A DNA stretch of 64,000 nt, taken from Microbacterium luteum (GTDB taxonomy: Bacteria > Actinomycetota > Actinomycetes > Actinomycetales > Microbacteriaceae). The notes beneath the pieces were generated by a model. The model saw nothing but the letters and a program-made list of their open reading frames with translations. It did no database searches and was not told where the DNA came from. Numbering within the stretch: the stretch's first letter is position 1; the number at the start of each line of letters is the position of its first letter. A program made the translations under genes and the position numbers. Shown in pieces: positions 7,889-18,783 of this stretch. The DNA lies in contig NZ_CP063814.1 of assembly GCF_015277875.1 (NCBI RefSeq), forward strand, positions 310,001-374,000, written 5' to 3'.

Positions 7889-7928
7889 GCTGTTCACGGC
7901 CGGCGCGCCCTCTGACCGGGCAAAGCGA

Positions 7929-7960
7929 AACCCCCGCGATGTAGAAGCTACGCGAGGGTT
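7929..7960 (-). terminator. Displaced copy of the tRNA-Phe terminator
   Basis: AACCCCCGCG (7929-7938) pairs with CGCGAGGGTT (7951-7960) apart from one mismatch. The same hairpin, perfect, follows the intact tRNA-Phe at 18675-18706. This copy sits just outside the left 44-bp att repeat and probably is the original chromosomal terminator separated from its tRNA by island insertion. Confidence 0.65.
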
Positions 7961-7987
7961 CCTGGGATGATTGTAACGATCACCCTT

Positions 7988-8031
7988 GTGGCTCCGACCG
8001 GCATCGATCCGGTGACCTTTCGATTTTCAGT
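7988..8031. repeat. Left attachment repeat of the tRNA-Phe island (attL)
   Basis: 44 bp identical, in the same orientation, to 18710-18753, which is the 3' part of tRNA-Phe from the anticodon loop to the discriminator base. This is the classic trace of a site-specific integrase acting on a tRNA gene. The 515-bp gap 7742-8256 otherwise holds only the two hairpins above and a probable promoter (TACGGT near 8227) for the gene at 8257. Confidence 0.88.
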
Positions 8032-8256
8032 TGTATGCGCGGGGTCCATGGGTGCTCACGAGTACTCGCTTGCCGCGTGAATCCACGGAAGTCGTGCTCG
8101 TTGGTGATGGCTGGTCGTGGGTGGTTTGAGCCGGGCTTCCGGCCCGGGACCGGCCCGGGTGGGTAGCAAGTGCCACTGATGGCACAACGGGCCGAGGTGG
8201 GGGTCGGCCCTGCGTCTCGTGATGAGATACGGTTCAGCCAAACCTGAAAGGCAACG

Positions 8257-9153
8257 ATGGCTGAAAAATCAAGGACCCTCGACGTTTATAGCATTCATGG
8301 ACATCTCTCGCCGGGTTCAGCTTCGGAGGCGCTTCTTGACTACGATGCCTATTTTCGGGGACTCGCCATGAGCGGCGAGGGGGTGTCGATTCCGGTAGGC
8401 AATGAGACCGTCGCGCTGGTGGCAGCCACCAGGCGTAATGAGCGCCACGCATTCAGATTCGTGAGCGGAAATGCGGATGACCTTGCGGAAGCATTCGACC
8501 CAAGCTCCGGAACTACGGTGGAGGTCGACCTTGGTCGTGAGCGATTCATCGTGAGCGGCGCTTGGGTCATCGTTGACGCGTCCAAGAGAGTTGCAGTCAT
8601 TGAGCGCAAGAGGCCGGGAGTGCCCGTCTACCAGCTGGAGCGGTTTCTCGCGAGGTTTGGGCGGGATAATGGATTTCCAGGCTTGACCATCTCACTGAAT
8701 CCCGTGCCCAGCGAGTCGTTCGTTCGAGAGATCGAGCGCTTCACCAGAATACGTGAGGCATCTGTAACCATCCGTCGACCGAATCACAGTTTCACTGCGT
8801 CTGCGCGCGAGGCAGTAGCTCAGATTGCTCGGGAGTCCAATGCGGGAAGCGCGACGGTGCAAGTAAATGCGGACCGCAAACAGTCTCTTGCGAAGGACGA
8901 GGGCATCGTCGCCGACATCATCTCGTTTGCGAAGAGCGCGATTACCCCGATCGTCAACGCGACCGTCAAGGGGATGCGTCCGGGCTTTGGAAAAGAGCGC
9001 ACGGTGTCCTTGCAGAAGCATGTGCTCAAGGGGACAGTTGACATCGACACGAATGACACTCCCCTGCGCCAACTGGATTCCATCGATGGTGCAGCGGACA
9101 CCCTGATCGGTGAAGCAAGTGTGCAGGATGACGGGACTGAGTCGCGAACCTGA
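8257..9153 (+). CDS. Unknown island protein, candidate soluble partner of a membrane protein
   Basis: 298 residues, no transmembrane segment, start ATG 8257 with GAAAGG 8 nt upstream. A beta-rich N-terminal half (1-125: YDAYFRGLAM, VALVAATRRN, HAFRFVSGN, WVIVDASKRVAVIERKRPG) is followed by a mixed alpha/beta region ending IREASVTIRRPN (about 165-176) and a C-terminal helix-rich tail. The strand-helix order ending in a short RPN motif is reminiscent of DUF4747-type proteins, but this is a low-confidence impression. It is 8 bp from the four-helix membrane protein at 9162 and next to hsdR in a tRNA-borne island, so a defence role is an inference from context. Confidence 0.65.
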   Translation: MAEKSRTLDVYSIHGHLSPGSASEALLDYDAYFRGLAMSGEGVSIPVGNETVALVAATRRNERHAFRFVSGNADDLAEAFDPSSGTTVEVDLGRERFIVSGAWVIVDASKRVAVIERKRPGVPVYQLERFLARFGRDNGFPGLTISLNPVPSESFVREIERFTRIREASVTIRRPNHSFTASAREAVAQIARESNAGSATVQVNADRKQSLAKDEGIVADIISFAKSAITPIVNATVKGMRPGFGKERTVSLQKHVLKGTVDIDTNDTPLRQLDSIDGAADTLIGEASVQDDGTESRT

Positions 9154-9161
9154 GCAGCAAC

Positions 9162-9770
9162 ATGATCGATGACGAGGAACGCGAACGGGCGCTGCACGAC
9201 TTGAGGATCGTGCGGCACCAGCTGTTGCCGCGCTGGAAGCAGGTGGTCCTGAGCTGGTCTACCGCCTTCGCGGTGATTCTCTCGATCGCGACGACCGTCG
9301 CCGCCGCGATGTTGCCGGTACGGGGTATGCCCATCGCGAGTGTGGCCGGGATCGGCCTTACCTACGCCTCGATTTCGATGGCGGGCTGCATCAGCGGGCT
9401 AGTGCTCGCGTTGGCACTTCCGGGATCATCTCGCCTGCGGAAGTGGACAAGGATGGCCGGCACCACACCGAACAAGAGCATGCTCAGCGACCTGATCTTT
9501 TCGTTCTTCTGGGCCGCGTGCTGCCAACTTTCGGTCCTGTTCGTGAGCGTTCTCGCTACCGCCATCGGGGGCCCGCTGCTCGTTGGCGCGCCCAGCCCGT
9601 TGCCCATCCTTCACGTCGTCGCGCTCATCGCATCGCTGTTCGTCTTCTACTACGCGCTGGCGCAGCTCTACGTGGTTCTTCAGACTCTCGTCCAGGTTGG
9701 GGTTCTGGTGATCCTCGAGGAGCGAGATGGCGAGCACATTGAGAGCGGTGTCGCGCGAGAAACGAGGTAG
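9162..9770 (+). CDS. Four-helix membrane protein, partner of the upstream gene
   Basis: 202 residues with four predicted transmembrane segments: about 29-52 (LSWSTAFAVILSIATTVAAA), 62-87 (AGIGLTYASISMAGCISGLV), 107-134 (DLIFSFFWAACCQLSVLFVS) and 145-183 (HVVALIASLFVFYYALAQLY). A charged N-terminus (MIDDEERERALHDLR) and C-terminus probably face the cytoplasm. It begins 8 bp after the stop of the gene at 8257, implying one transcript. No family recognised; small membrane proteins of this type often act as membrane-disrupting effectors in phage-defence pairs, which is inference only. Confidence 0.65.
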   Translation: MIDDEERERALHDLRIVRHQLLPRWKQVVLSWSTAFAVILSIATTVAAAMLPVRGMPIASVAGIGLTYASISMAGCISGLVLALALPGSSRLRKWTRMAGTTPNKSMLSDLIFSFFWAACCQLSVLFVSVLATAIGGPLLVGAPSPLPILHVVALIASLFVFYYALAQLYVVLQTLVQVGVLVILEERDGEHIESGVARETR

Positions 9771-9934
9771 TCGAGCGAGACCACAGGTTCCGCCCGCGGA
9801 CCATTCTGCGGGGACGGCATCACCGGACGCTCTCGATTAGGCGCAGCTAGTCCCGATGGGTCACAGTGTGTTGTGAGAATCTCGAGAGCTCGTCTGCGGC
9901 GACGGACTCGCTCACACTCGAAAGGTTGGCGCAG

Positions 9935-12238
9935 ATGACTAGCAACCTGACGGAACAGGAGACACGCTCGAGGCTCATAACTCCTGCACTCACCGCGGCT
10001 GGCTGGGACCTCAACACACAGATCCGCGAGGACTTTGCTCTCACGGCGGGCCGGATCGTCGTCGGGCGCTCGAGGGACACGCGGCAGCGGCCAAAGCGCG
10101 TCGACTACGTCCTCGAGATGCAACCGAACGTACCGCTGGCGGTCATTGAAGCCAAAGACTCGTCTCACGCCCCTGGTGCCGGGATGCAGCAGGCGCTCGA
10201 ATACGCACGCATGCTCGGCGTCCCATTCGCCTTATCGACGAATGGCATCGAATTCCTGATGCACGACGAGAGCGCTCAAGACGGTGCGGTCGAGCGTCTT
10301 CTGGCTCCTCATGAGGTACCCAGTCCTGCTGACTTATGGGCGCGTTACCTAGCGTGGCGGGGAATCGACATGCCGGCTAGAGCGCTGGTGGAAGAGGAGT
10401 ATTTCACCGGCGCCAGCGCGAAGGGGCTTCGGTATTACCAGTCCGCCGCCGTGAACAGGGCGATGGAAGCGATCGCCGCCGGGCAGCGGAGGCTCATGCT
10501 CGTCATGGCGACCGGAACTGGTAAGACGCTCACGGCGTTTCATCTCATGTGGCGCCTCCGGGCGGCTGGGCGGGCCGGCAGAATATTGTTTCTTGTCGAT
10601 AGGAATGTGCTAGCCGACCAGGCGCTAGTGAATGATTTCCAGGCTTTCGGCCCCATCATGACGAAGGTATCTGGAGGGCAGGTCGACAAGTCGTACGAGG
10701 TATATCTCGCTCTTTACCAGGCGCTAACGACCCCGGGTGACGGGCCAGATCTCTACAGTCAATTCAGCCCTGACTTCTTTGATTTGGTCGTCGTTGATGA
10801 GTGCCACCGTGGGTCAGCCTCTGAAGACTCGACATGGCGCGCCGTGCTGGAGTACTTCCAGAGCGCCGTCCAGGTTGGTTTAACTGCGACACCGAAGGAG
10901 ACCGCCGAGATCTCGAACCGTGGTTATTTCGGTGACCCGGTCTACACATACAGTCTTCGAGACGGTATCGAGGACGGCTTCCTGGCACCGTTCACGGTCC
11001 GTCGCATCGATCTCGATAAGGATCTCGGAGGGTGGCGGCCCTCTGTGGGCCAGCTAGATCGATTCGGACAAGAAGTGCCCGATCGCACATATACGTCGAG
11101 AGACTATGACCGCACTGTCGTACTTGATCGCCGAAGCCCTGTGGTCGCCGCGGCGATAACCGAGTTTCTCGAGAGCCGCGACAGGTTTGCCAAGACGATC
11201 GTCTTCTGTGAGGACGTCGATCACGCAGAGCGCATGCGCCAAGAACTTGTGAACGCAAACGCCGATCTCGCAGTTGGCCACAGTAAGTATGTTTCGCGGA
11301 TCACGGGGGATTCCGAGTACGGCGCAATCGACCTCGAGGCGTTCATGGACCCGTCGAGCGCGTTTCCCGTGATTGCGACGACCTCTAAGCTCTTGACCAC
11401 CGGGGTCGATGTTCCGACGTGCAAAGTCATCGTGCTCGACCAGACGATCAACTCGATGACCGAGTTCAAGCAGATCATCGGGCGGGGCACGAGAGTGCGC
11501 GAAGACCTCGGTAAGACGTCGTTCACCATCCTCGATTTTCGTGGCGCTACGACCCTGTTCGCCGATCCTGCGTTCGACGGGGAGCCCGCTGAATTCGATG
11601 TCGAGGACGACGAAGACGATGACGATGCAGGTACCGGGCCTGCAATCGACCCTGCGGAGGACGCTGAGCCTCGCGGCGGCCGATCGCGGTACTTCGTTGA
11701 CGGCGTCGAGGTCTCGATCCTTCAGGAGCGTGTGCAATACCTTGACGCAGCAGGGAGGCTGATCACAGAGAGCCTTCCTGAGTACGTCGGTGAGCAGATT
11801 CGGCAGAGGTTCCCGCTGGTTGAGGATTTCCGACGTTACTGGCTCGGCACGCGAAAGAAGAGCGCACTCGACGAGCTGACGGAGCAGGGGATTCTACTTC
11901 CGGCTCTGATCAACGAATCTGGGTCAGAGTACGACGCATACGACCTCGTGCTCTGGGCGGCCTACGGAAACGCAAAGCAGACGCGTGCGGAACGAGCCGA
12001 GAGAGTGCGAGCAACCATTCGAATGTCGGAGACCCCCTCGATAGTGGAGTCAGTGCTCAGGGCGCTTCTCAAGGTCTACGAGAATGAGGGGCCGGCCGAG
12101 ATGGAGGACGTTCAGATCCTCAAACTGCGGCCGATCGCGGAGATCGGAACCGCGGTAGAGGTCATCGGCGCGTTCGGAGGCAGGCGAGGGTACGACGCCG
12201 CGGTGACCTCCCTCACCGATGAAATCTATGCAAGCTAG
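9935..12238 (+). CDS. hsdR: Type I restriction enzyme, restriction/translocase subunit HsdR
   Basis: 767 residues. The N-terminal nuclease domain has the PD-(D/E)xK pattern (RVDYVLEM then AVIEAKDS, about residues 49-75). The SF2 helicase part has Walker A MATGTGKT (about 193-200), the DEAD-type box VVDECHRGS, GLTATPKET, and the second RecA domain with TTGVDVPTCK and QIIGRGTRVRED. An acidic stretch EDDEDDDDAG separates this from a helical C-terminus. HsdR cuts DNA after ATP-driven translocation only in complex with HsdM and HsdS. ATG at 9935 has AAAGG upstream. Here the partner hsdM is truncated and hsdS is absent, so the complex cannot be complete from this locus. Confidence 0.93.
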   Translation: MTSNLTEQETRSRLITPALTAAGWDLNTQIREDFALTAGRIVVGRSRDTRQRPKRVDYVLEMQPNVPLAVIEAKDSSHAPGAGMQQALEYARMLGVPFALSTNGIEFLMHDESAQDGAVERLLAPHEVPSPADLWARYLAWRGIDMPARALVEEEYFTGASAKGLRYYQSAAVNRAMEAIAAGQRRLMLVMATGTGKTLTAFHLMWRLRAAGRAGRILFLVDRNVLADQALVNDFQAFGPIMTKVSGGQVDKSYEVYLALYQALTTPGDGPDLYSQFSPDFFDLVVVDECHRGSASEDSTWRAVLEYFQSAVQVGLTATPKETAEISNRGYFGDPVYTYSLRDGIEDGFLAPFTVRRIDLDKDLGGWRPSVGQLDRFGQEVPDRTYTSRDYDRTVVLDRRSPVVAAAITEFLESRDRFAKTIVFCEDVDHAERMRQELVNANADLAVGHSKYVSRITGDSEYGAIDLEAFMDPSSAFPVIATTSKLLTTGVDVPTCKVIVLDQTINSMTEFKQIIGRGTRVREDLGKTSFTILDFRGATTLFADPAFDGEPAEFDVEDDEDDDDAGTGPAIDPAEDAEPRGGRSRYFVDGVEVSILQERVQYLDAAGRLITESLPEYVGEQIRQRFPLVEDFRRYWLGTRKKSALDELTEQGILLPALINESGSEYDAYDLVLWAAYGNAKQTRAERAERVRATIRMSETPSIVESVLRALLKVYENEGPAEMEDVQILKLRPIAEIGTAVEVIGAFGGRRGYDAAVTSLTDEIYAS

Positions 12239-12250
12239 GAGAAGTCTCAG

Positions 12251-12616
12251 TTGATCACGCAGGCGACTATCAAGTCGATTCAGGACGTCATGCGGAAGGA
12301 CGTCGGTATCGATGGCGACGCGCAGCGTCTTGGTCAGATGGTCTGGATGTTCTTCTTGAAAGTCTTGGACGACCGCGAGACGGAGTGGGAGCTCTTCGAG
12401 GAAGATTTTGCCTCAGCGATCCCGGACGAGTTGCGGTGGCGCGCGTGGGCCGCGCCGGACGAGGGCTTGACTGGTGATGCACTCCTCAAGTTCGTAAACA
12501 ACGAGCTGTTCGACGGGCTCAAGCGGCTGAAGCTTCGCCAGGGCGCAAACCCTGAGATGACGAAAGTGATCCGCGGGTCTGCCCCGAGTCTTGTTGACAG
12601 TCGGGGGTTGGGGTGA
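12251..12616 (+). pseudogene. hsdM: HsdM, N-terminal fragment cut off by IS3 insertion
   Basis: Begins at TTG 12251 with AGGAGA just upstream, 12 bp after hsdR. About 110 residues match the HsdM N-terminal helical domain (DAQRLGQMVWMFFLKVLDDRE, FVNNELFDGLKRL). At about 12577 the sequence enters the IS3 left end, and 13 foreign codons follow before a stop at 12616. The SAM-binding and catalytic NPPF region is missing, and no continuation of hsdM or any hsdS is found right of the IS, so insertion was accompanied or followed by deletion. Confidence 0.88.
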
Positions 12617-13498
12617 TCAGGCCGCTTCTGCGTCCTTGTAGATCATCTCAAACTCGACGGGGGTGAGTTTGCCGAGGCCGCGTTGGCGGCGCCTGCGGTT
12701 GTATTTCGTCTCGATCCAGGTGACCATCGCGAGGCGAAGATCGGCGCGGGTGTCCCAGCGCCTCGTGTCGAGCACGTTCTTTTGGAGGAGGCTGAAAAAG
12801 CTCTCCATGCTCGCGTTGTCACCGGCCCCGTAAGACCGGCCCATGGAGCCGACGAGGCCGTTGTTGCGGAGCAGGTTCTGGGTGCGTTTCGCGCGGAACT
12901 GGCCGCCTCTGTCGGAGTGGCAGATCGTGCCGCCAGGTGAGCGCAGCGCGATCGCGTTGCGCATCGCCGCCCGCGCGAGAGATGACTTCATGCGGGTGTC
13001 GATGGAGTAGCCGACGATCTTGTTCGACCAGACGTCCTTGATCGCGCAGATGTAGAGCTTGCCTTCTCTGGTCGGGTGTTCCGAGATGTCCCACAGCCAG
13101 ACCCTGTTCGGCCCGTCGGCGACGAACTCGTGCCGGATGACACCGTGCTCGTCGACCACGGCGAGCAGGTCGTCGTGCGGCGCGGGTCCGGTGCTGCCGG
13201 GCTTGCTGCGCTTCTTGTGGTGCGATGCGTGGATCCCCGCGATCCGGCAGAGTCGGTGCACCCGGTTCTCGCTCGCGGTGACCCCGTGCTCGGACTCGAG
13301 CTCGTCGGTGAGGAACCGGTACCCGAGGGTGTCGTCGTCCGCATGGAGGTCGTAGAGCACGTCGATCACGTGCGCATCGTCCCAGTCCCTGTCGGAGACC
13401 GGGGCTTTGAGCCACTGGTAGTACCCCTGCCTGGACAGGCCGAGGACCCGCAACGCCACCGCGACCGGCACCCTCACGGGAGCGCCGGCCGCAGCCAT
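12617..13498 (-). CDS. IS3 transposase OrfB (catalytic, DDE)
   Basis: 293 residues counted from an internal ATG. HTH_21-like N-terminus (LGLSRQGYYQWLKAPVSDRD, LGYRFLTDEL), then the retroviral-type integrase core: first D in WLWDISEH, second D in CHSDRGGQF, E in NASMESFFSLLQKNVL. The functional transposase is expected as an OrfAB fusion made by -1 frameshifting near 13525; the OrfB frame is open through that site. All three acidic residues are present, so it may be active. Confidence 0.9.
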   Translation of the reverse strand: MAAAGAPVRVPVAVALRVLGLSRQGYYQWLKAPVSDRDWDDAHVIDVLYDLHADDDTLGYRFLTDELESEHGVTASENRVHRLCRIAGIHASHHKKRSKPGSTGPAPHDDLLAVVDEHGVIRHEFVADGPNRVWLWDISEHPTREGKLYICAIKDVWSNKIVGYSIDTRMKSSLARAAMRNAIALRSPGGTICHSDRGGQFRAKRTQNLLRNNGLVGSMGRSYGAGDNASMESFFSLLQKNVLDTRRWDTRADLRLAMVTWIETKYNRRRRQRGLGKLTPVEFEMIYKDAEAA

Positions 13499-13518
13499 CT
13501 CGTGGACGAGCGGGAAGA

Positions 13519-13806
13519 CTATTTTCCCGGCAGGTTCGCCTGCGACAGATACGCCGCAGCCCGCCGCAGCACCTCGTTCTCCTGCTCCAACAGCCGGATC
13601 CGCTTGTTCGCCTCACGCAGCTGCTTGCGCTCGTCGTCGGTCAGGCCGGCACGCTTGCCGTCCTCGACGTCGGCCTGCTTCATCCAGTTGCTCAGCGATC
13701 CTTCGGAGATACCGAAGTCCTTCGCGATCTGCGCCAACGGCGCTTGACCCTTCCGGGCCACGGCCACGACATCATCGCGGAACTCTCGGGGATAGGGCTT
13801 TGCCAC
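13519..13806 (-). CDS. IS3 transposase OrfA (helix-turn-helix)
   Basis: 95 residues from GTG 13806, which has GGAAGG 8 nt upstream. HTH_Tnp_1 domain (YPREFRDDVVAVARKG, LAQIAKDFGISEGSLSNWMKQ) followed by a leucine-zipper-like segment (RKQLREANKRIRLLEQENEVL) that oligomerises the transposase. Binds the element's ends. An ATG at 13839 is an alternative start with a poorer ribosome site. Confidence 0.88.
   Translation of the reverse strand: MAKPYPREFRDDVVAVARKGQAPLAQIAKDFGISEGSLSNWMKQADVEDGKRAGLTDDERKQLREANKRIRLLEQENEVLRRAAAYLSQANLPGK
13522..13528 (-). promoter_or_regulatory. Programmed -1 frameshift heptamer GGGAAAA
   Basis: On the minus strand the end of orfA reads CCG GGA AAA TAG. G GGA AAA is a canonical X XXY YYZ slippery heptamer; slipping back one base gives GGG AAA ATA GTC TTC and continues into OrfB. 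Confidence 0.75.
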
Positions 13807-13870
13807 AAGAACATCCTTCCAGCGAGAACGAATCCTCACAGATCAGATGTCAACCAAACTCGGGGCAGAC

Positions 13871-14097
13871 CCCTGTTCGCTGTTCTGGCGAATGCGCTTG
13901 ATGACTACCGCGCGACGCTCCTCGACCATCGCGACACGTTCACGGACGGCCCGGAGGCGGCCCACTTCGCCCGGTCGGTTGCCCAAGTCGACGATCTCCG
14001 AGCTGCGCTCTGGGATGAGTTCGATTCGCCATGTCCGCGAAGTGCGTTCCCGGCGGCCTATACCTACAGAGGGCAGCATCACGCCCTCGAAGATTGA
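13871..14097 (+). pseudogene. C-terminal remnant of an unknown gene after the IS3 element
   Basis: From the IS right end an open frame reads PLFAVLANALDDYRATLLDH ... QVDDLRAALWDEFDSPCP and ends at TGA 14097. The composition is protein-like, but the beginning has been lost to the IS-linked deletion. It is not recognisable HsdM or HsdS. It ends just before the ribosome site of the gene at 14108. Confidence 0.45.
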
Positions 14098-14107
14098 GAG
14101 GAAGATG

Positions 14108-14860
14108 ATGTCATCGACAACGGATGTGTCGCTATCGCGGCTCGAGCAGGTATACAGCCCGCTGGGGGACTACCTGCGGTCGGTCAGTTCGAACGAAGAT
14201 GCCGTTCTGTCGTTCGCGGAGGTGGAATCGCTTATTGGACGATCGCTACCACAACAGGCGCGGTCGAAGCTCATGTGGTGGCAGTCGGTCCCACGGCAGC
14301 CGCAAAGCCGGGCCTGGCTCCGGGCTGATCGACGAGCCGATGCGGACTTGACGGCGGAGACCGTCACCTTCGTCTTCGAGGTGTTCGTCCGGAACAACCC
14401 GCTCGAGCGGATTCAGAGGATCCGTGCGAACTGGCTCGGGTATGCGCGGACCAGTTTGTCGATCCCGCCGAGAGACGCTCACGATCCCCATGTAGAACTT
14501 GGCTGGTGGGAGCCCCACGAGGTCTACTTGTTACATCTTCCCGCGTCCTCGCAGTTCAAAGTCGGCCTCACGCGGATTGGCAGCAAGCGTCTCGCCGCCG
14601 TGGGTGGCGCGAGGGCACACGTTGTCGACCGCATAACGATGGCGAACCGCTGGGCTGCGCTCGTCGTCGAGCATCACGTGCTCGAGCTCGCTTGGGACGC
14701 ATGGGAGCAGCCGGACCGCTTCGCTACAGGTGACAAGGGTGAAACGGAGCGCTGGAACGACTGGCTGGTGCCGCCGCCACTGTCGGTGGTCCGTGATTCG
14801 CTTGTCGATCATCGGGCGCTACCGGGATGGGACGTCACCGTGATCAGGAGTGGCTCATGA
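14108..14860 (+). CDS. Two-domain unknown protein: DUF7662-like N-terminus plus GIY-YIG-like region
   Basis: 250 residues. Residues 8-60 (YSPLGDYLRSV, LSFAEVESLIGRSLPQQA, KLMWWQS) have the Y-PL-YL / F-E-IE-LG-LP / WW pattern I associate with DUF7662. Residues ~135-215 (EVYLLHLPASSQFKVGLTR, KRLAAVGG, ANRWAALVVEHHVLEL) resemble a GIY-YIG/T5orf172-like nuclease layout (hydrophobic strand, KVG-T, R-L, late E). Both assignments are by eye. AGAGG lies 6 nt before ATG 14108; an in-frame ATG at 14105 is possible. Overlaps the next gene by 4 bp. Confidence 0.6.
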   Translation: MSSTTDVSLSRLEQVYSPLGDYLRSVSSNEDAVLSFAEVESLIGRSLPQQARSKLMWWQSVPRQPQSRAWLRADRRADADLTAETVTFVFEVFVRNNPLERIQRIRANWLGYARTSLSIPPRDAHDPHVELGWWEPHEVYLLHLPASSQFKVGLTRIGSKRLAAVGGARAHVVDRITMANRWAALVVEHHVLELAWDAWEQPDRFATGDKGETERWNDWLVPPPLSVVRDSLVDHRALPGWDVTVIRSGS

Positions 14861-15566: not shown

Positions 15567-16081
15567 CTCAAGAGGGCTGGATCTACGAGCGATCGTCGGA
15601 CGGCGCGGCGCGGTTCGTGCTCGGCACAGGGGGCGAGAATCCCCTCGTCTGCTTCGGGATCAATCCCAGCACCGCGAAGCCCGGCGCCCTCGACCCGACG
15701 GCGAAGCGGGTTGCGCGATTTGCCCAGGACAACGGCTTCGACAGCTGGGCGATGCTGAACGTCTACCCTCAGATCGCGACCGATCCCAAGCGGATGGATC
15801 GCGAGTATCGCTTGGAGCTCAAGACCGAGAACGAGCGTCAAATTGAGCGCGCGATCGACGGGCGGTCGCTGACTCTGCTCGCCGCGTGGGGCGGGTTGAT
15901 TGTCTCACGACCATACTTGAGGCGGCTCTTGAGCGACATCGTCACGGTGACCGCGAGTGCCGGCTGTGACTGGGTGTCTCTCGGCGAGCCGACGAAGGAT
16001 GGACACCCCAGGCATCCGCTTTACGTGAGGTCAGAGGTCAAGCTCGCGCACTTTGCTATCGATCGCTACCTTCGCAACTAA
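15563..16081 (+). CDS. DUF1643 domain protein
   Basis: 172 residues from GTG 15563. The DUF1643 hallmark CFGINPSTAKPGALDPTAKR (about 31-50) is followed by DSWAMLNVYPQIATDP and the C-terminal pattern LGEPTKDGHPRHPLYV. DUF1643 proteins are common in phages and mobile islands; their biochemical role is not established to my knowledge. The TAA stop lies within the 5-bp target duplication of the IS1380 element, so the insertion left the gene intact. Confidence 0.85.
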   Translation: MTQEGWIYERSSDGAARFVLGTGGENPLVCFGINPSTAKPGALDPTAKRVARFAQDNGFDSWAMLNVYPQIATDPKRMDREYRLELKTENERQIERAIDGRSLTLLAAWGGLIVSRPYLRRLLSDIVTVTASAGCDWVSLGEPTKDGHPRHPLYVRSEVKLAHFAIDRYLRN

Positions 16082-16082
16082 G

Positions 16083-17762
16083 CCTCGATCCACCGATGAG
16101 CGTGGGTGCTGAGCGAGCGTCGCGACGTAGAAATGCCTCTCTGATCAGGAAGAATAGAGCTTGTCTAGGGCAACTGTTCAACTGATCCGAGAGGCATCTC
16201 GTAGATGCAATTCAAGCACGCTCCGACCGCGGTATCTGCGGCATTCGATGATCCGAGTCTCGTGTCGACGGCAGGGCTGGTGCCGATGCTCAGGCTCGCG
16301 CAGCGGGCCGGTCTGGCGGAGCTGGCTCACGACCGGTTGAGTGTCCCGACGGACAAGGGCGCGAACGCGGGTGCGAAGGTGATGTCGCTGGTCGCGGGGA
16401 TGCTCGCCGGGGCGGACTCGATCGACGACATGAACCTTCTCCGCCACGGCGGCATGGTGGGCCGCCTGTTCGCCCGGACGTATGCGCCGTCGACGCTGGG
16501 ATCGTTCCTGCGTGGGTTTCGGTTCGGCCATGTCCGCCAGCTCGACGCCGTCGCCTCCCGCGTCCTTCAGAACCTCACCGCCGACACGCCACTGCTGCAG
16601 GTGCGAGACGGTGAGCGGGTGATGGTCGATCTGGACGACACGATCATCGAGGTCCACGGGTATCAGAAGCAGGGCGCCTCGTTCGGGTACTCCGGCGTCC
16701 GCGGCCTGAACGCGCTGATCGCGACGGCATCAACCTCATCGTCGGCGCCGGTGATCCTCGGGCAGCGGTTGCGGCAGGGGAAGACCGGGTCCCCGAAAGG
16801 CGCGGCACGGATCGTCGGTGACACGCTCGCGACCCTGCGCCGCACTGGCGCCGCGGCCGGGACTCGGCCGTTGCTGCGGGCGGATTCCGCGTTCTACGGG
16901 CACGCCGCCATCGGCACCGCGATCAACGCCGGCGCCGACGTGTCGGTGACGGTCAGGATGGACCCTGCGGTGAAGGCCGCGATCGCGACCATCCCGGATG
17001 ATGCGTGGGAGATGATCGAGTACACCGACTCGATCCGTGACGAGACCACCGGACAGTTGATCTCCAAAGCCGAGGTCGCCGAGATCCCGTTCACCGCGTT
17101 CCGCTCACGGAAGAAGGCGGAACAGGTCGCTGGGCGGCTGGTGGTGCGGCGGATCCCCGACCTGAACCCGAACAAGGTGGAGCAGCCGACGCTGTTCGAC
17201 GTCTACCGGCACCATGCGTTCTTCACCACCACCGACAAGAGGTGATGGACACGGTGGTCGCGGACAAGACGCACCGCGCTCACGCGATCATCGAGCAAGT
17301 CCACGCCGACCTCAAGAACGGGCCGCTCGCGCACCTGCCCTCTGGTGTGTTCACGGCGAACAGCGCCTGGCTCGTGCTCGCCGTGATCGCGTTCAACCTC
17401 ACCCGCACCGCTGGAGTCATCGCCGACAAGGCCGGTCGGCTCGCGAGAGCCACGACCGCGACGATCCGCCGCACCCTCATCCACGTCCCGGCACGGCTGG
17501 CTCGCTCCGCCCGCCGCATCATCCTGCACCTCCCGGAGGCGTGGCCCTGGCAGAACGCCCTCCACCGGCTGTTCACCGCCACACACGCACCGCCACCAGT
17601 CACGACCACCTGACCATCGCCGCAACCGCGGCACGACCAAGGAGCCAGTGGACGACCGGGATGCGACGCCCGGAACCCAGCCCTGCCCTCGACACGTCAC
17701 CGCGCGCCGATCACGCCAATCACGCCGGCCCGACCAACCCACGGCTCATCGGTGGATCGAGG
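16083..17762. mobile_element. IS1380-family insertion sequence with intact ends
   Basis: 1680 bp. Perfect 19-bp terminal inverted repeats (CCTCGATCCACCGATGAGC at 16083, its complement ending at 17762) and a 5-bp direct target duplication CTAAG at 16078-16082 and 17763-17767. The transposase inside is frameshifted, so the copy is probably immobile unless helped in trans. Confidence 0.92.
16205..17613 (+). pseudogene. IS1380-family transposase, single frameshift
   Basis: First frame 16205-17245 encodes 346 residues with the IS1380/DDE pattern (VMVDLDDTIIEVHGYQKQGA, LLRADSAFYGHAAI). The frame ends at AAG AGG TGA; the protein resumes in another frame from 17242 (MMDTVVADKTHRAHAIIEQV then FTANSAWLVLAVIAFNLTRT) to TGA 17613. 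A single-base deletion near 17238 explains the break. The late glutamate of the active site (IEQVHADLKNG) lies in the second piece, so the shift inactivates the enzyme. Confidence 0.9.
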
Positions 17763-17811
17763 CTAAGTAGACGTCACGGGGACGATCGGGGAATCGGGCT
17801 ACCTTCCGACA

Positions 17812-18525
17812 TCACCGGACTTGCTCGATGAGCTCCTGCCAAGCGCGTCGGAACTGGTCCGTGAGGTCACTTCCGCGCGCGGCCGGCGACTTGATCTGAC
17901 CGACTCGCACAACGACGCCGTTAGTGTGTGCGCGGTGCTTCCCGAACTCTTGGACTTCCTGAGCCGTCCATTCCCTAGCGGCAAGCACACCGCCGTGGTC
18001 ACCGTCTACGAGGAGGAAGATGCAGACGTCGAACCCGAACGACCGAATCGGAGAAAACACCGCTGACGGGCTCGTGCCCGGTCGGATCATCCGAACCTTG
18101 ACTTGCACTTTGCGGCCGTCGTCCGCGACCAGATCGTAGGACTTCTCGGAGTTCGGCGCGAGTAGGCCGTCGTACACGATGGCAGCGCAGTACTCGGCGA
18201 GGTCACCGATCGGCGCATTGTTTGTGCGAACGAGTCCACGATGTCGCAGCTCGTCGAGGATGTTCGCATAACGCACGAGCAGCTGGCCGACCGTGACCTC
18301 GGCGAGTTCGTCATTGTCTGCCGGGGCTGCGAGCGGAGGCATCGCGTGATCGGCGCGCGAGAAGTGGGCGCGGACAAGGTCTACCTGCTCAGCGGTCAAC
18401 GACCAGGCGCTGCCGGCTTCGACGGGATGGCGCCAATTCTGCCGCCTCATCCACGCACGGATGGCCTTCGGATCGACGTTCAGCTCATCGGCGAGCTCTC
18501 TCACGCTGGGTGAAGAATCAGCCAT
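17812..18525 (-). CDS. Predicted nuclease-fold protein with N-terminal HTH
   Basis: 237 residues. The N-terminus (VRELADELNVDPKAIRAWMRRQNW, residues 7-30) is a winged/HTH-like DNA-binding segment. The central part has a PD-(D/E)xK-like pattern: GDLAEYCAAIVYDG, then KSYDLVADDGRKVQVKVRMI, with D and the Q-V-K lysine. Such domains (for example DUF6998-type proteins) are thought to be restriction-like nucleases or DNA-binding relics. It is the last gene of the island, on the opposite strand, 1 kb from tRNA-Phe. Family assignment is by motif only. Confidence 0.65.
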   Translation of the reverse strand: MADSSPSVRELADELNVDPKAIRAWMRRQNWRHPVEAGSAWSLTAEQVDLVRAHFSRADHAMPPLAAPADNDELAEVTVGQLLVRYANILDELRHRGLVRTNNAPIGDLAEYCAAIVYDGLLAPNSEKSYDLVADDGRKVQVKVRMIRPGTSPSAVFSPIRSFGFDVCIFLLVDGDHGGVLAAREWTAQEVQEFGKHRAHTNGVVVRVGQIKSPAARGSDLTDQFRRAWQELIEQVR

Positions 18526-18674
18526 CCTCGAACCGTATCGGAGCCTCGACCGGCCCCAGACCGGCCCGCACCATCCAACGACTGCGCTTGCAGCGTCCAG
18601 GTCAGGCCGTCTGGGGGATGCGCGGGCGACTCAAGGTCAAGTCGGAAAACGACTCATAACCAGGGAAAAGAAGA

Positions 18675-18706
18675 AACCCCCGCGATGTAGAAGCTACGCG
18701 GGGGTT
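18675..18706 (-). terminator. Terminator of the tRNA cluster
   Basis: AACCCCCGCG and CGCGGGGGTT form a perfect 10-bp stem; on the minus strand the stem is followed by a pyrimidine/T-rich stretch (TTCTTCTTTTCCC). It lies a few bases after the end of tRNA-Phe. A slightly decayed copy is at 7929-7960. The remainder of 18526-18674 shows no gene. Confidence 0.75.
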
Positions 18707-18709
18707 TCC

Positions 18710-18753
18710 GTGGCTCCGACCGGCATCGATCCGGTGACCTTTCGATTTTCAGT
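18710..18753. repeat. Right attachment repeat of the island (attR, inside tRNA-Phe)
   Basis: 44 bp identical to 7988-8031. It covers the 3' part of the functional tRNA-Phe, so the element restored the tRNA when it integrated. Confidence 0.88.
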
Positions 18754-18783
18754 CGAACGCTCTACCAACTGAGCTACAGAGCC
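18711..18783 (-). tRNA. tRNA-Phe (anticodon GAA)
   Basis: 73 nt. Acceptor GGCTCTG/CGGAGCC, D-arm GCTCAGTTGGTAGAGC, anticodon loop CTGAAAA, T-loop GATCGATGC (the TTCGATNC position). CCA is not encoded. Host site of the genomic island. Confidence 0.96.

Follow-up and report, generated by a model that had tools for sequence, protein, structure and literature searches.

RexAB-like exclusion systems and the A-B gene pair

RexAB-type modules for abortive infection (phage exclusion) combine a soluble protein with a membrane partner, and by the count of a 2026 paper just five RexAB-like systems had been described (PMC12894663). According to three papers, lambda RexA and the actinophage proteins Sbash gp30, CarolAnn gp44, and Butters gp30 have in common a weak DUF4747 motif and partners with four transmembrane (TM) helices, and phage exclusion is reported as demonstrated for the Sbash, CarolAnn, and Butters pairs. 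In the Butters pair the soluble RexA-like protein is reported to be the effector, which its membrane partner restrains (PMC7542560, PMC12894663). A further pair, RexABpp (PP_5643/PP_5644) of the Pseudomonas putida prophage P1, was identified via HHpred and structure, and the same paper gives no HHpred match for its RexB (PMC12894663). Here, we describe a gene pair, termed A-B, in a 64,000-nucleotide stretch of the Microbacterium luteum genome (NZ_CP063814.1, positions 310,001–374,000, hereafter the window; genome of 3.52 Mb in one contig), which is probably a two-gene module of this RexAB type, carried on a tRNA-Phe island instead of a prophage.

A first-pass annotation of the window had singled out this pair as a candidate undescribed defense module that joins a sensor-like cytosolic protein to a small four-TM one, neither of a recognized family. 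The two open reading frames (ORFs) are indeed 8 bp apart, stop to start, and their features, in window coordinates, are as follows:

8257–9153, forward strand: gene A, ATG start, ORF call for a 298-amino-acid (aa) soluble, RexA-like protein with a presumed sensor role
8716–9021, forward strand: residues 154–255 of A, aligned with the dimerization domain of RexA (chain residues 141–236)
9162–9770, forward strand: gene B, ATG start, ORF call for a 202-aa four-TM, RexB-like protein with a presumed effector role
9414–9491, forward strand: residues 85–110 of B, the basic central loop that joins TM2 to TM3, called from the charge pattern and invariant columns

A hydropathy scan of four homologs of A (window A itself lying outside it) found no membrane helix in any. 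For B, the average over the six-member family described below has hydrophobic segments at 35–53, 66–84, 111–129, and 155–173; the four-TM call is based on this average because single members vary from three to six segments, window B alone having five, the last of them weak (170–188, mean 1.3). Around these segments B has lysine plus arginine counts of 6, 1, 5, 0, and 3 from the N- to the C-terminus, and the central loop is predicted to be cytoplasmic by the positive-inside rule. The soluble-plus-membrane layout of the first-pass annotation thus stands by homolog hydropathy for A and by the family average for B.

The A-B pair recurs and diverges in step

We searched for A in four overlapping genome samples drawn at the level of the family (398 genomes), order (396), class (394), and phylum (396), with the single sequence in the family sample and with profiles in the other three. 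Leaving aside two weak partial matches in the family sample, full-length A occurs in six genomes from five families, namely, that of the window and those labeled G087, G425, G641 (Zhihengliuella salsuginis, Micrococcales, the same order as the window genome), G840, and G1208; each sample of 394–398 genomes contributes one or two full-length matches other than the window's own. B directly follows A on the same strand in all six, the two genes overlapping by 38 bp at one extreme and lying about 100 bp apart at the other (ORFs as listed). A reciprocal view comes from a B profile search of 198 genomes of the order, in which both of the two genomes with B have an adjoining A. The identities to the window proteins match genome by genome (A and B, respectively: 34% and 34% in G087, 52% and 46% in G425, 48% and 44% in G641, 40% and 33% in G840, 23% and 24% in G1208), indicating that the two proteins diverge in step. 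Across the six genomes 29 positions of A are invariant, among them R174-P175-N176, as are 14 positions of B, including S109 in the central loop and L111, F113, and W117 directly after it. A-B is a pair that travels together between distant bacteria, and the co-occurrence expected from the neighborhood check proposed in the first-pass annotation was found.

A and B both stay below the curated cut-offs of Pfam and NCBIfam, those of housekeeping families included, and have no convincing match in PADLOC or PHROGs; A matches no PADLOC family at expectation values (E) up to 1, and B only RTasSLATT, weakly (E 0.046, 0.081). Window A does show subthreshold matches to DUF4747 (PF15931; E 0.0032, residues 151–222 on profile positions 151–222) and DUF6731 (E 0.028, 84–224 on 87–227), which recur in G425 A (DUF4747, 151–223 on 151–223; DUF6731, 63–172 on 68–172), and phrog_10865 is likewise in register in both (90–225 to 93–231 and 85–262 to 88–267). 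The DUF4747 scores in these two of the six A proteins (17.4 and 17.0 bits) lie under the Pfam gathering cut-off of 27, and the other four have no DUF4747 match in the Pfam scan. We treat the DUF4747-type matches as leads only, if better ones than usual because of their near-zero coordinate offsets in proteins of similar length. A literature search that covered neither subscription papers nor bioRxiv did not find the A-B family in print, and a text find in PMC10482375 returned no occurrence of Rex or DUF4747.

Comparison with RexAB and the actinophage pairs

All six A-B loci share with lambda RexAB the order of a soluble gene followed by a four-TM gene on one strand. A is similar in size to RexA (298 versus 279 aa), and the B family resembles RexB in having, by hydropathy and charge of the family average, four TM helices, both ends cytoplasmic, and a basic central loop; the corresponding lysine plus arginine counts are 2, 2, 5, 0, 1 for lambda RexB and 3, 0, 3, 0, 4 for Sbash gp31, against those given above for B. 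B is, however, longer than RexB (202 versus 144 aa), and the window pair, unlike lambda RexAB, adjoins hsdR on its island and lacks an adjoining prophage repressor (no CI-like repressor was seen among the island genes scanned; no systematic search for phage genes was made around the pairs). The Sbash pair is reported to be displaced from its repressor as well. A Foldseek search with a weak model of A placed lambda RexA (PDB 8TWQ, 8twq) first of 350,542 PDB chains, which suggests a RexA-like fold for A. The RexA fold consists of a split globular domain and a four-stranded dimerization domain. In the BFVD database three uncharacterized phage proteins of 292–314 aa (A0A8S5S8L2, A0A8S5QGP5, and A0A8S5PCY0) beat lambda RexA by E-value with the same model, and may be phage-borne relatives of A.

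Several results weigh against a RexAB assignment. The A model has a pLDDT (predicted local distance difference test score) of only 41, and a control model drew chance matches close in E-value to the RexA match. No A or B protein of the six genomes matches the Pfam families RexA (PF15969) or RexB (PF15968) at E up to 1, nor do the five A proteins scanned match the PHROGs RexA family phrog_12654, while lambda RexA and RexB themselves match their families in the same scans. The published DUF4747 motif was not reproduced in the lambda RexA, Sbash, CarolAnn, Toast, or Butters proteins by Pfam at E up to 1; A thus matches DUF4747 better than the known Rex proteins do, and the DUF4747 bridge between them rests on the HHpred results of the papers. 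Direct alignment of A and B to Rex proteins with hhalign gives probabilities of 0.1–0.7%. The failed sequence tests are uninformative on their own, since actinophage and lambda RexA fail against one another and the P. putida RexB is without an HHpred match. As the sequence-level comparisons gave no match and the fold comparison is at most suggestive, we do not file A-B as a member of RexAB.

The actinophage pairs compared were Sbash gp30/gp31, CarolAnn gp44/gp43, Butters gp30/gp31, and Toast gp42, for which we took gp41 as the partner from adjacency. They resemble A-B in gene order, four-TM partner, and actinobacterial hosts, but their soluble proteins are larger (337–403 versus 298 aa), and the pairs are not alignable with A or B. 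Sbash gp30 and CarolAnn gp44 match phrog_36224 at about E 1e-228, a family that none of the five A proteins scanned matches (hhalign probability 0.1%). RexABpp, compared by description only, likewise joins a RexA-like soluble protein to a four-TM effector but differs from A-B in being prophage-borne and downstream of a CI-like repressor. Taken as a whole, the layout and the model comparison make A-B most likely a variant, new and outside prophages, of a known type of system, RexAB-type exclusion, its function being read across from these systems. Of the first-pass label, 'undescribed' holds for the protein families, but the type of system is probably a described one.

The first-pass annotation had instead drawn the parallel to Kiwa, and A-B could conceivably be a different, unnamed defense pair with Kiwa-like logic, i.e., a membrane-bound A-B complex at rest with B as the membrane sensor and A as a DNA-acting effector. 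KwaA is also a four-TM protein, and the Kiwa gene order is opposite to that of A-B. Kiwa shares with A-B two genes, for one membrane and one soluble protein, a layout that suits it equally: KwaA is reported to be the membrane sensor and KwaB a DNA binder, with KwaA tetramers and KwaB dimers forming a membrane lattice (PMC12904381). The Butters precedent, of a soluble effector held back at the membrane, points the same way. We nevertheless regard such a pair as unlikely, given the PADLOC results above and a structure search topped by RexA and not by another fold. Neither A nor B matches the KwaA or KwaB models of PADLOC-DB, which we take to include Kiwa. RexAB is the better parallel on the soluble-then-four-TM order, the RexB-like topology, the weak in-register DUF4747 matches, and the top rank of RexA in the structure search.

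Genomic contexts of the six copies

Five of the six copies lie in mobile or defense settings. The window copy is on the tRNA-Phe island, directly 5' of the hsdR gene of a broken type I restriction-modification (R-M) system. In Z. salsuginis (G641), restriction and nuclease-helicase genes form a run that stops about 0.6 kb before A; it comprises an Eco29kI-type R-M system (C5 methylase and endonuclease), whose end is 6.8 kb upstream of A, and genes for a HATPase protein, a nuclease-helicase of the Mrr type, and a small protein. The last three form one run between the Eco29kI-type system and A-B (L011, 3894–8549), which is possibly another defense operon. DDE transposases flank the G425 copy, and PD-Lambda-3_B is matched at a site about 5 kb downstream; the G840 copy is about 2 kb from genes for an HTH_17 (excisionase-like) protein and a TrwC relaxase-helicase; and the G1208 copy has, at a distance of about 4 kb, a cluster of the pSAM2 type of integrative element, with genes for FtsK, RepSA (E 3.6e-138), HTH_17, and a phage integrase. 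The G087 copy is solitary, with proC (P5CR_dimer, E 2.6e-33) on one side and trk-type genes (trk named by eye) on the other. This enrichment near mobile and defense genes is descriptive, as it carries no control for background defense-gene density.

That four of the six copies (window, G425, G840, G1208) are in or near mobile genes would also fit a pair for mobile-element maintenance or superinfection/entry exclusion, which guards an island or integrative element from related elements and not from phages. We consider this improbable, as the elements that carry the pair are unrelated in type, hsdR directly adjoins the window copy, and restriction and nuclease-helicase genes precede the one in G641. 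An ordinary cellular pair of a small transporter and its soluble partner, in islands by chance, would suit the G087 copy, around which no mobile gene was recognized by eye in 20 kb (not scanned gene by gene), but is very improbable in view of the very sparse distribution, the foreign composition in the window, and the lack of a match to a housekeeping family.

The tRNA-Phe island of the window

The island spans about 10.7 kb, is delimited by a duplicated 3' end of tRNA-Phe, and has a GC content of 0.626 against about 0.70 outside. A and B are its first genes, A beginning 218 bp inside the left boundary and the hsdR ORF 95 bp past B, in accord with the placement given by the first-pass annotation. 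The GC content of A is 0.579, and among 296 stretches of the same length in the right flank not one falls this low; that of B is 0.629, with six of 298 B-length windows at or below it. Its main features are:

7927–8038, no strand assigned: attL-like copy of the tRNA-Phe 3' end plus 3' flank, left boundary, from direct repeats
9866–12238, forward strand: hsdR, type I restriction subunit of the EcoAI/FtnUII family (NF046051, E 9e-294), a neighbor outside the pair
12251–12616, forward strand: 5' fragment of hsdM (HsdM_N and MTase_I matches), interrupted by an IS3-type element
12575–13872: IS3-type element, from inverted repeats
18673–18783, reverse strand: intact tRNA-Phe plus 3' flank, attR-like right boundary, from ARAGORN and the repeat

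The boundaries are marked by a 34-nt direct repeat of 97% identity (7927–7960 versus 18673–18706) and a 51-nt one of 94% identity (7988–8038 versus 18710–18760), the tRNA-Phe gene itself being at 18710–18783 (ARAGORN). The IS3-type element interrupts hsdM after about 108 codons, and none of the ORFs scanned was identified as hsdS, so that the type I system is probably inactive, with A and B intact beside it. An R-M neighborhood recalls the DUF4747/CarolAnn operons reported downstream of R-M loci in a capKS regulator study (PMC13373217), but the window pair precedes hsdR.

The remaining island content consists of small genes of no known function, DUF1643, and an IS1380-type transposase match. 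A 337-aa ORF with a DUF7662 match (13847–14860, E 1.8e-8) begins where the IS3-type element has its right inverted repeat. Inverted repeats delimit an IS1380-type element at 16077–17768; its transposase match (16205–17245) covers profile positions 2–320 of 419 and a second frame (17214–17831) overlaps its end, so that the gene may be split. Two further genomes, G1487 (contig 18) and G1491 (contig 1), have an extra copy of the tRNA-Phe 3' end about 10 kb and 14 kb, respectively, from the tRNA cluster on the same strand, which makes tRNA-Phe an apparent recurrent site of islands in the genus.

Proposed mechanism and implications

The pairing, conservation, hydropathy pattern, and mobile or defense settings of A-B are directly seen; for sensing, activation, contact with the B loop, and depolarization we extrapolate from the papers on RexAB, Sbash/CarolAnn, and P. 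putida RexAB. Lambda-type RexAB is characterized by phage exclusion that goes with depolarization of the membrane, and by a RexA dimer that binds DNA. The sensor-plus-membrane module of the first-pass annotation gains from the recurrence of the pair and its settings, with sensing itself transferred from those systems. We propose that A is a soluble sensor, a RexA-like dimer, that would recognize an intermediate or product of phage infection, whether DNA or protein. Once activated, A would contact the cytoplasmic face of B at the basic central loop, upon which B, with four TM helices and both ends cytoplasmic, might open or oligomerize into an ion-conducting pore, such that the membrane is depolarized, ATP drops, and the infection is aborted.

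More speculatively, the six loci may belong to a hidden RexAB-type branch of Actinomycetota, widespread but rare, residing on tRNA islands, on integrative or conjugative elements, or near restriction genes and invisible to current detectors; it might act as a backup that fires once restriction has failed, in which A would detect ends or intermediates of phage DNA and B would collapse the membrane. In the DefenseFinder survey RexAB is reported mostly on prophages and in Proteobacteria only, for which limited model sensitivity is offered as a possible reason (PMC9090908). If true, a branch in actinobacteria, outside prophages, in which no more than gene order, membrane topology, and probably fold is preserved would speak for that explanation. 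It would likewise supply six dispersed natural variants for locating the contact between sensor and effector, and would allow the activation of RexA-type sensors to be tested in systems other than lambda.
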